From Candidatus Saccharimonadota bacterium (GTDB lineage Bacteria; Patescibacteriota; Saccharimonadia; Saccharimonadales; UBA4665), in NCBI GenBank assembly GCA_003153395.1, contig PLYP01000009.1:1-64000 (forward strand): a stretch of DNA of 64,000 nucleotides, written 5' to 3'. The notes below the pieces were generated by a model. The model worked only from the letters and a program-made list of their open reading frames with translations, had not been told where the DNA came from and did not search any database. Below are positions 49,334 to 52,763 of the stretch, piece after piece. Each line of letters begins with the position of its first letter. Position 1 is the first letter of the stretch. Made by a program: the position numbers and the translations under genes.

Positions 49334-49355
49334 AACATTTAAAGTGTTAAATGTT
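49334..49355. repeat. AT-rich inverted repeat spanning the ileS stop codon
   Basis: Perfect 9-bp stem AACATTTAA/TTAAATGTT with 4-nt loop. No T-tract follows on the minus strand, so terminator function is doubtful; it could protect the mRNA 3' end. Confidence 0.4.
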
Positions 49356-52256
49356 CTTTTTAAGCCTAATTATCAGTTCTGCGCCGCCTATGATTAAAGT
49401 CTCATAATCTTCTTCTAAGTTCGAACTCTTAAGATGTACCGCAAGAGTTTCTTCCTTAATGTCTTTAGATAACACGCTATCCGTAAGAACACTTAATAGT
49501 AATTTATCTTTTGTTAGATATTCAATTAATATTCTATCGTCAACTTCGAAATCCTTACGTTTCCTTACTTGCTGTATATGCCGAATTACTTCTCTAGCCA
49601 GCCCTTCTCTTTCTAATTCTGGCGATATAACGGTGTCCAGTTTTACGATGTGCTCAGAGTCATGCGTGTCATATATTACCGACTTAACATTTAGTTCTTC
49701 TTTTAATATTTCTGTGTAGTCAACCTCTATATTATCCAAATATATTGGTCCACCTTTAATATATAGTTTTTGAAGAGGTTGGCGTACCTTGATGCCCTCG
49801 CTAGCTCTTTGTGCCAAGCCTTCTGTTATTACTTCCCTTATATATTTCATTTTTGTAATTACTAGCTCATTTATATGCCCACTGGACGGCCAATCCTGTA
49901 AATGAACAGACTCAGCATCTGTTAGTAATCTGAATAGCTCATCGGACATAAATGGCGTAAACGGAGCCATAATAATACTTAACTGCACTAATACATAGTG
50001 CAGTGTCTTATATGCCCGCTGCTTGTCCTGATCATTAGTACTTTTCCAGAATCTTTTACGACTTCTCCTAACGTACCAGTTACTAGCATCGTCAATAAAT
50101 GGAATAATTGGTTTAATCGCATTAGGTAGATCATAAAGTCCCATATGATGATCTACTTCGTTTGTGAGCTGATGTAGCCTGCTAATAATCCAAAGGTCTA
50201 GATGGCTTGAAAGATCTAAGGTGGGGTCAGATGGAAGCTCGTTTTCTTCTAGTCCAGAATCCCACTTATCAACTTCTGCGTACAGAGTAAAAAAGTCGTA
50301 CATGTTCCATATCATAGATAGCTTACGGTTCACATCCGCTATTTCCTTATCTTGCAGAGCAAAATCTTCTCCATTTAATAGCGGTGACCCCAGTAGTAAC
50401 ATCCTATAAGCATCCGCGCTGTATTTATCTACTAGCTCTATAGGATCAGTATAGTTTCCGAAACTCTTACTCATCTTCCGGCCGTCATTTCCGGATAAAG
50501 TACCTGTTACTATTACATTTTTAAATGAGTTTTTTCCGAATAATCCTACCGAAACACTGTGTAGGGAATAGAACCAAGCTCTGACTTGTCCTACATACTC
50601 AGCAATAAAATCTCCTGGAAAATTATTTTCAAACTTTTCAGTATTCTCAAACGGATAATGGAATTGCGCGAAAGGCATAGAACCACTTTCAAACCAACAA
50701 TCCAGCACTTTATCAATGCGCTTATATTCAATGCCCTCTATTTTAAAGCTAACATCATCGACCCATGGTCTGTGGTAATCTTCAAGTTCGATGCCTGATA
50801 ATTCTTTTAGCTCGGCGTAGCTTCCTACAACTTTAATATGCTCTTTCCCTTCGTCGTCAACACCCTTCCATACCGGCATAGCGGTTGCCCAGAATCTATC
50901 TCTGCTTATGTTCCAGTCGGGGGCACTTTCAATGGTTTTCGCAAATCTACCCTGTTTTATGTGCTCTGGGAACCAATTAATATTTCCGTTTTGTTCCAGC
51001 ATTTGTTCCTTTTGATCCACAATATTAAGAAACCAGCTAGGATGAGCTCTGTACATAAGCCTAGTTCCACAGCGATGACAATGTGGGTAGTTATGCGTTA
51101 TGTAATCGATCTTCCACACAACACCTTCTTCATGTAATTGTTTTGCAATCGGTTTATTGGCATCCCATACAAGTTCCCCCTTCCAATCTCCACTACTGTA
51201 AAATCCGTTATCATCTATAACTGAAACTACTGGAAAATCTTTTTCCTTAGCTAGTAGGTAATCCTCTTCACCATATGCCGGCGCTAGATGCACAATACCA
51301 GTTCCATCTTCTAAGTTAACGTACTCTGCATCCCACACCTTGTGTGCTTTTTTTCCTCTATCTTCGAATAAAGGCTTATACGATTTTCCTATTAATTCAC
51401 TACCCTTAAAGGTTCTAATTACCTTATACGGAAGAACCTCGTGCTTTTCGTTAGTTAACACTCTATTTAATAGTTCATTAGCAATCACCAGCTTTTCGTT
51501 ATCTACTTCTACTTCCGCATATAATATATCCGCACTTACTGCCATGGCTGTATTAGCAGGCAGTGTCCACGGAGTAGTTGTCCATGCTAGTAAAGTTAGT
51601 TCACTATCCAAAAGTTTGAATTTTACATAAACGGAAGGATCAACCACATCCTTATATGAGTTGTCCATCGCCACTTCAGCTTTACTTATTGGAGTGGCAT
51701 CACGCGTACAATATAGTAGTACTTTTTCTCCTTCGTAAATTTTACCTGCCTCGTAAAGCTCTTTAAAAGCCCACCAAACAGACTCCATATAATCCTTATC
51801 CATAGTTTTATAAGCACCCTGGAAATCCACCCATCTACCAATTCTTTCTATTGTCTCTTCCCACTCACTTCCAGTCTGGACCATATTTTCTCTACAAGTA
51901 TTAATATATTCCTCTAGAGATACTTTGGTACCGATATCACGCCTGTCCTTAATTCCTAGCTTTTGTTCCGTAAAAACTTCAGCAGGTAGCCCATGACAAT
52001 CCCATCCCCAAACACGCTCAACATACTTTCCTTTCATAGCCCAATACCGTGGTACCGCATCCTTTACAATGCTGGATAATAGAGTACCGTGGTGGGGTAT
52101 TCCAGTAATAAATGGTGGGCCATCATAAAATACGTACGCTTCTGATTTAGGCCTTTGGTTCACAGATTTTTCAAAGATTTTATGATCTTTCCAATGCTTA
52201 ATCAAGCCTTTCTCGTACTCTATTGATGGACGGCGATTACCTTTTTTAAATTTCAC
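49347..52256 (-). CDS. ileS: Isoleucyl-tRNA synthetase
   Basis: Class I synthetase, 969 residues. HIGH-type motif GIPHHGTLL near residue 55, editing (CP1) domain with LLAWTTTPWTLPANTAMAV, RAHPSWFLN, and KMSKS in GNDGRKMSKSFGNY. The N-terminal pattern (WGWDCHGLPAE, CRENMVQTGSEWEETIERIGRW) resembles the eukaryote-like type 2 IleRS. GTG start with AAGGAG at 7-nt spacing. An out-of-frame ATG four nt upstream begins a 4-codon frame. Controlled by a T-box leader. Confidence 0.95.
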   Translation of the reverse strand: MKFKKGNRRPSIEYEKGLIKHWKDHKIFEKSVNQRPKSEAYVFYDGPPFITGIPHHGTLLSSIVKDAVPRYWAMKGKYVERVWGWDCHGLPAEVFTEQKLGIKDRRDIGTKVSLEEYINTCRENMVQTGSEWEETIERIGRWVDFQGAYKTMDKDYMESVWWAFKELYEAGKIYEGEKVLLYCTRDATPISKAEVAMDNSYKDVVDPSVYVKFKLLDSELTLLAWTTTPWTLPANTAMAVSADILYAEVEVDNEKLVIANELLNRVLTNEKHEVLPYKVIRTFKGSELIGKSYKPLFEDRGKKAHKVWDAEYVNLEDGTGIVHLAPAYGEEDYLLAKEKDFPVVSVIDDNGFYSSGDWKGELVWDANKPIAKQLHEEGVVWKIDYITHNYPHCHRCGTRLMYRAHPSWFLNIVDQKEQMLEQNGNINWFPEHIKQGRFAKTIESAPDWNISRDRFWATAMPVWKGVDDEGKEHIKVVGSYAELKELSGIELEDYHRPWVDDVSFKIEGIEYKRIDKVLDCWFESGSMPFAQFHYPFENTEKFENNFPGDFIAEYVGQVRAWFYSLHSVSVGLFGKNSFKNVIVTGTLSGNDGRKMSKSFGNYTDPIELVDKYSADAYRMLLLGSPLLNGEDFALQDKEIADVNRKLSMIWNMYDFFTLYAEVDKWDSGLEENELPSDPTLDLSSHLDLWIISRLHQLTNEVDHHMGLYDLPNAIKPIIPFIDDASNWYVRRSRKRFWKSTNDQDKQRAYKTLHYVLVQLSIIMAPFTPFMSDELFRLLTDAESVHLQDWPSSGHINELVITKMKYIREVITEGLAQRASEGIKVRQPLQKLYIKGGPIYLDNIEVDYTEILKEELNVKSVIYDTHDSEHIVKLDTVISPELEREGLAREVIRHIQQVRKRKDFEVDDRILIEYLTKDKLLLSVLTDSVLSKDIKEETLAVHLKSSNLEEDYETLIIGGAELIIRLKKNI

Positions 52257-52476
52257 TCATTTTCTCCTTATGGTAAATAAAAACACCTCAACAGGTTGCC
52301 GGAGTCCTTTTATTATTAGGACGGTACCATCCGGTTTCCTTTGAGGCGTTTCGCTCAAAAGCTCTCAGTTAAGACGCTATAACGGGCTCCCCGGTGAGTT
52401 CTAGTAGGCTTTAGACCGTTCTTCTCACTCCTTTGCGGTTGATAGCCGCTCAAATGGATTTAACACTTACTTACAG
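52257..52476 (-). promoter_or_regulatory. T-box riboswitch for ileS with AUC (Ile) specifier
   Basis: Minus-strand leader with the T-box hallmark UGGUACC (52329-52323) bulged between stems CCGGA/UCCGG (52334-52330, 52303-52299) and GUCC/GGAC (52322-52319, 52307-52304). Upstream is a stem III-like hairpin (52338-52361). A 4-bp GCGG/CCGC hairpin at 52435-52449 displays CUAUCAA, with AUC (52443-52441) followed by A, as specifiers are. Alternative pairing AAACGCCUCAA (52351-52341) with UUGAGGUGUUU (52291-52281) precedes a U-run. CUCC (52304-52301) can pair with the GGAG of the Shine-Dalgarno site. Stem I is very short, as in actinobacterial ileS T-boxes. Confidence 0.85.
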
Positions 52477-52481
52477 ATAAA

Positions 52482-52490
52482 ACTATAGCA
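52482..52490 (-). promoter_or_regulatory. Extended -10 promoter of the ileS T-box transcript
   Basis: TGcTATAGT (-10 at 52487-52482). Predicted start near 52475, giving a leader of about 220 nt covering the T-box. Confidence 0.6.
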
Positions 52491-52496
52491 CAAAAA

Positions 52497-52763
52497 TTAA
52501 ACGTTAGTATAGGAAGCAACTTCATCCATTAAGGGTAGCTGAGCACCTTGCCAAATTTTTTGTACGTAACCATCCGTCCTTAACACAAGAATTGCGGGGT
52601 ACTGCACTACATCGTAAAGTGTAGCTGTAGCAATACCTTCCCTGGTATCTATATTAAGGATCTCTAAATGTTCAACCTGGTGTCTGCTTTGATATTCACG
52701 GATGAATTCCTCAATAGTACGGCCATGCTCAGAGTTAGGTCGGTATATTATCAGTAGCTTCAT
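52497..52763 (-). CDS. Thioredoxin-fold protein lacking CxxC
   Basis: 88 residues with the thioredoxin/glutaredoxin layout: MKLLIIYRPNSEHGRTIEEFI (strand-helix), VEHLEILNIDTREGIATATLYDV, the cis-Pro loop VVQYPAILVL, and a final TDGYVQKIWQG strand-turn. The active-site CxxC is absent (YRPNSEH at that position) and there is no Cys at all, so it is not a redox enzyme. Lies 75 bp downstream of the RNR gene. Possibly a binding or scaffold role. Confidence 0.7.
   Translation of the reverse strand: MKLLIIYRPNSEHGRTIEEFIREYQSRHQVEHLEILNIDTREGIATATLYDVVQYPAILVLRTDGYVQKIWQGAQLPLMDEVASYTNV

Follow-up and report, generated by a model that had tools for sequence, protein, structure and literature searches.

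The window, that is the whole 64,000-nucleotide stretch of contig PLYP01000009.1 that was analysed, carries on its minus strand the isoleucyl-tRNA synthetase gene ileS (49347..52256), which is matched by TIGR00392 above its cut-off (E 1.5e-241) and is the target gene that the original prediction had named. Its start was set at the GTG codon at 52256, because an ATG just upstream meets a stop after four codons. Directly 5' of ileS lies a leader (minus strand, ~52490-52257), adjoined upstream by an 88-aa ORF (52497-52763, minus strand) that is thioredoxin-like by eye and without an NCBIfam match. The genome assembly comprises 920 kb in 11 contigs, and its closest named relatives are Candidatus Saccharibacteria. 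Neither 16S rRNA nor tRNA-Ile(GAU) was found in this assembly, which is rated 100% complete; their joint absence looks like an assembly gap in which an rRNA operon is missing. The tRNA-Ile(GAU) is present in one Saccharibacteria relative, as confirmed by ARAGORN, and further relatives contain matches to its sequence pattern.

Anatomy of the leader

All the features described here are on the minus strand. The leader region includes an extended -10 promoter element, TGCTATAGT (52482..52490), from which the transcription start is expected near 52475. A -10 match of at least 5/6 is found just upstream of Stem I in 58/62 relatives, vs 51% of shuffled sequences, and no consensus -35 was found. Stem I, with its outer UCC/GGA helix (52458-52456 / 52431-52429), is confined to 52429..52458. 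It contains the specifier hairpin GCGG-CUAUCAA-CCGC (52435..52449), whose four pairs have all changed on both sides and whose cells are paired at 99.2%; the 7-nt loop displays the isoleucine codon AUC (52441..52443) followed by A 52440. The 4-bp inner stem presents kink-turn-like GA/AA flanks in the window, and a GA or AA flank is found in 58/65 relatives on the 5' side and in 60/65 on the 3' side of the inner helix, which is compatible with a kink-turn.

Stem II (52394..52428), formed by GUGAG (52428-52424) and CUCAC (52398-52394), combines covarying pairs with the invariant AGAA and UAGA, its S-turn-like strands being AAGAAC and UACUAGAA. It is followed by Stem IIA (CGG/CCG) and a possible IIB pseudoknot (52374..52393). 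Stem IIA is supported by covariation and IIB amounts here to only ~2 bp, the window's own pseudoknot not being found at a 3-bp minimum; a IIB helix of at least 4 bp occurs in 51% of relatives vs 18% of shuffled sequences. The purine string RRRxG (GAGAG, 52362..52366), in which the A, the G and the last G are invariant in 32/32 sequences, precedes Stem III (52338..52361). The latter pairs CUUUUGAG (52361-52354) with CUCAAAGG (52345-52338), with double-sided changes in 7/8 pairs and 97.3% of cells paired, and is followed by an AA that is invariant in the alignment; some relatives are without Stem III.

The antiterminator (52299..52334) is built from helix A1, CCGGA (52334-52330) with UCCGG (52303-52299), and helix A2, GUCC (52322-52319) with GGAC (52307-52304), separated by the UGGUACC bulge (52329-52323). 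A1 is paired in 100% and A2 in 99.1% of cells, both with double-sided changes, and the UGGNACC bulge is invariant in the 32/32 model sequences; the Rfam T-box model RF00230 independently matches relatives at the antiterminator position. The closing pair of A2, where a G-U wobble is thought to sense the amino acid, is G-C in the window and not the G-U present in 19/32 relatives. The bulge between two paired stems, the stem III-like hairpin and the AUC followed by A in a 7-nt loop on a 4-bp stem had all been read from this one sequence by the original prediction, and each was recovered at the positions given above.

Conservation, specifiers and search models

The T-box core was found in 68 of ~90 Saccharibacteria ileS leaders, and nearly all these 68 also carry an N4-YUAUCAR-N4' hairpin ~100-145 nt upstream. 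Among 65 leaders picked by the T-box core alone, AUC not being required, 62 keep a hairpin of 4 bp whose loop has AUC at positions 3-5, vs 2.1 expected from shuffled leaders. In an alignment of 32 sequences, the 30-pair structure formed by Stem I, Stem II, IIA, Stem III, A1 and A2 is paired in 96.5% of its cells and 24/30 pairs have changed on both sides; 0/500 shuffles were as good and slid partners pair at 34-53%. The comparison of related ileS leaders that the original prediction had proposed thus shows a structure that is conserved and covaries. At four loci (L081, L082, L089 and L109), ileS is separated from the T-box terminator by a small ORF of ~60-80 codons, which may be under T-box control together with it. 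One assembly (G089) contains, on contigs C19 and C20, two distinct ileS genes that share 70% and 67% identity with that of the window and each have a T-box of their own; they are either two real copies or the product of mixed strains.

A covariance model built from the Saccharibacteria ileS leaders, R1, detects a single element in the window's genome, and has matches in 72/93 genomes of the window's family and in 140/380 sampled Patescibacteria genomes. In Saccharibacteria, two weak matches (L228 and L229, E ~2e-4) precede hisG and another gene. The gene context was determined by NCBIfam and BLAST for 60 R1 matches, nearly all outside the window's family: an aminoacyl-tRNA synthetase gene lies downstream in 55 (29 ileS, 18 valS, 6 aspS-type, 1 thrS and 1 lysS). 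The specifier was called blind to the gene, as the codon before the loop's A in the most stable qualifying hairpin of each leader. With this procedure, chosen after two earlier versions had been scored, the hairpin codon agrees with the amino acid of the gene in 42/55 cases, while 20,000 permutations of the labels average 17.3 agreements and never exceed 29. A looser test giving 50/55 was dropped, its permutation mean being 35, as was a version giving 30/55 in which AUC/UCA ties were wrongly broken in loops ending in AA. The Val leaders carry GUC and the Asp/Asn leaders GAC or AAC. The Asn specifier AAC stands before three aspS-type genes (L190, L194 and L209, two of them nondiscriminating AspRS) and the others have the Asp specifier GAC, a hint that tRNA-Asn charging drives AspRS in some lineages.

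The discriminator base is G73 in tRNA-Asp and tRNA-Asn and A73 in tRNA-Ile. The T-box base N is C (UGGC) rather than U (UGGU) in 4/6 Asp/Asn cases vs 3/49 others (p 0.0014), an enrichment that is expected if N pairs with the G73 of those tRNAs. Base N fits the discriminator, U for tRNA-Ile and C enriched at Asp/Asn, when the tRNA discriminators are taken as the textbook bases rather than those of these genomes. The specifier-gene match and the shift of base N are two signatures of tRNA recognition that were not imposed by R1. An ordinary ribosome-mediated attenuator, or another leader merely resembling a T-box, could explain the presence of a terminator together with an alternative hairpin, but neither the invariance of the UGGUACC bulge nor the phylum-wide agreement of the specifiers with Ile, Val and Asp/Asn genes, and the ATG in the antiterminator (GATGGTACC) opens a frame that ends after four codons; such an explanation is hardly credible. 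Covariation, phylum-wide conservation and specifier-gene agreement bear out the T-box identity originally assigned to this leader of a CPR host, which is very probably a switch reading uncharged tRNA-Ile.

The Rfam models gave nothing on the window at the gathering cut-off, and RF00230 was without a match even at E 10; the sole Rfam match at E 10, a fungal snoRNA on the opposite strand, was taken as chance. The original prediction had staked itself on a covariance-model hit and on conservation of the bulge or the AUC hairpin in related ileS leaders: the hit is indeed missing for Rfam in this genome, but the lack of conservation is contradicted by the 68 core-bearing leaders. At its cut-off, RF00230 recovered 0/20 tested loci. 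Of the 380 Patescibacteria genomes, 127 have an RF00230 match at E <=0.001, only 13 of them above the cut-off; 82 genomes are common to R1 and RF00230, 185/380 are found by either, 49 places stand in both tables and 58 genomes found by R1 are missed by RF00230. RF00230 matches relatives at the places of R1, typically with E 1e-5 to 1e-11, so the identity proposed for these elements agrees with an independent model made from known T-boxes. Most of them would be lost in routine annotation, and T-boxes are probably under-reported in this phylum; Rfam may already list a few Patescibacteria members, because 13 genomes exceed its cut-off. The T-boxes L230-L241 of other Patescibacteria, of the same phylum and the same family by RF00230 score, are matched above the cut-off over the full length of this model, whereas the ultrashort class scores below.

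The predicted off-switch and its competitors

Between the antiterminator and the Shine-Dalgarno sequence AAGGAG (52264..52269) lies a U-run, UUUUUAUUU (52283-52275). Two outputs had been proposed for this region: an 11-bp pairing of 52351-52341 with 52291-52281 just before the U-run, and a pairing of CUCC, in the 3' strand of the antiterminator, with the GGAG of the Shine-Dalgarno. The first is real. In the minimum-energy fold, ~52352-52338 pair with 52295-52281, just before or into the U-run, and this hairpin has a z of -4.6, with 0/200 shuffles as stable. The predicted terminator (52275..52352) surrounds the antiterminator and breaks up Stem III; when the sequence is folded without the 52295-52281 strand, Stem III forms instead. 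A plain terminator scan of the leader came up empty, owing to the large structured region that tops the hairpin, and no unusual stability was found for the full 234-nt leader (z -1.2) or for its 5' domain alone (z +0.9).

The same competition is conserved in the relatives. Pairing of the terminator strand with the Stem III 3' half of the same leader averages -14.1 kcal/mol, vs -6.9 with the partners of other species, and in Saccharibacteria leaders a U-run nearly always comes after this strand, so that the mutually exclusive pairing followed by a U-run is itself a conserved feature. The terminator strand folds on the Stem III 3' half with A1 retained in 60/65 Saccharibacteria leaders, and at least 5 Stem III bases are re-paired in 59/64. 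The addition of this strand yields a gain of ~12 kcal/mol over the alternative fold, which makes the off state the predicted default. Twelve leaders are apparently devoid of Stem III (L034, L043, L049, L072; L171, L173, L178, L184, L185, L187, L202 and L207). In the Stem III-less leaders, the strand that runs into the U-run has the purine string (AAGxxCC) as its partner, and this subset appears to capture the purine string itself. Among other Patescibacteria, many leaders capture the antiterminator 3' strand, which is the textbook route, and a few use the Saccharibacteria route.

The second output is that of a translational T-box of the actinobacterial ileS type, in which the ACUCC of the antiterminator 3' strand would hide the GGAG when the tRNA is charged, the U-run being idle. 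The 4-bp CUCC:GGAG pairing can indeed be drawn in the window, and published translational T-boxes are the ones described with an ultrashort Stem I (PMC7583486). However, the 3' strand pairs with its own Shine-Dalgarno region at -5.1 kcal/mol, with that of others at -5.2 and with shuffles at -4.3, so that the own partner is no better than a foreign one, and the strand before the U-run covaries with Stem III instead. A purely translational switch is consequently unlikely. The comparison originally drawn with the extremely short Stem I of the actinobacterial translational ileS T-boxes survives as to architecture and finds no support as to output, the Shine-Dalgarno pairing being no better with its own partner than with others. 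Dual control, with termination followed by Shine-Dalgarno sequestration on the escaping transcripts, would reconcile the two drawable pairings, but its second part is without covariation support and we judge it very unlikely. The likely output, as predicted from these foldings, is transcription termination, and Shine-Dalgarno sequestration is unsupported.

The retention of A1/A2 in the predicted terminator fold also evokes a reversed logic, in which uncharged tRNA would bind the bulge inside the terminator-like hairpin and strengthen termination. But Stem III, without which the tRNA is described as unable to bind (PMC7583486), is destroyed in this fold, and raising the synthetase only when the amino acid is plentiful would make little sense; this reversal is highly improbable.

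A probable T-box with a proposed capture of Stem III

The model we favour, with good confidence on the basis of the sequence evidence, is that of an ultrashort-Stem-I T-box riboswitch through which Saccharibacteria control ileS by attenuating its transcription. The AUC in the 7-nt terminal loop would pair with the GAU anticodon of tRNA-Ile, and Stem II with IIA/B would brace the specifier-anticodon duplex. An uncharged tRNA would pair through its ACCA end with UGGU while Stem III and the purine string dock, and the tRNA-held Stem III and antiterminator would let the RNA polymerase continue into ileS. With a charged tRNA, or with none, the newly transcribed strand ~52295-52281 would displace the Stem III 5' half and pair with the 3' half, thereby forming the terminator hairpin before the U-run, with the A1/A2 helix surviving as its top. 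We infer in this model the binding of the tRNA, the sensing of its charging, termination itself and the sign of the response (on with uncharged tRNA). The window's RRRxG string and the AA after Stem III fit the discriminator motif of PMC7583486. According to the same review, known terminators are formed with the A1/A2 3' strands, and the tRNA needs Stem III in order to bind; the capture of Stem III is hence a plausible, different way to the same end.

By published description only, the leader resembles the actinobacterial translational ileS T-boxes (Nocardia farcinica, Mycobacterium tuberculosis; TBDB class II) in the AUC of a short kink-turned Stem I, the Stem II S-turn, the IIA/B pseudoknot, Stem III, the UGGN antisequestrator and the ileS target. 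The class II features found here are the specifier in the terminal loop, the absence of an elbow-binding module, the Stem II S-turn and the IIA/B pseudoknot, weak in the window. It differs from the actinobacterial elements by its phylum and by its predicted output, a terminator with a U-run and not Shine-Dalgarno sequestration. With the class I T-boxes (RF00230, e.g. Bacillus subtilis glyQS) it shares UGGN between A1/A2, the RRRxG-Stem III-AA series, an intrinsic terminator and the specifier logic; unlike them, it has no long Stem I or elbow-binding module, and the predicted Saccharibacteria terminator competes with Stem III and not with the A1/A2 3' strands. It is therefore a known kind of switch with an unusual off-switch, rather than a new kind.

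In the T-box database, the class II model was run on Actinobacteria only, apart from class I matches with a truncated Stem I (PMC7778990). No paper linking T-boxes to Saccharibacteria, CPR, Patescibacteria or Parcubacteria turned up in the open-licence literature, and in a 2024 perspective on Patescibacteria riboswitches appear only as engineering tools (PMC11665869). We lean towards the view that Patescibacteria hold a large unreported T-box class combining an ultrashort Stem I with transcription termination, and that in the Saccharibacteria branch the evolved terminator captures Stem III, or the purine string where Stem III is absent, instead of the antiterminator, the tRNA-sensing helix persisting in the off state.

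In conclusion, ultrashort Stem I and translational control, which are paired in the literature, would come apart here, and the capture of Stem III suggests a novel means by which the discriminator relays its state. CPR bacteria are often seen as poor in regulation and as relying on a host for their amino acids. Should a tRNA-sensing switch be present in about half of the genomes sampled (185/380), mostly ahead of synthetase genes among the loci examined, these leaders would offer a direct, testable handle on the sensing of starvation in this phylum.
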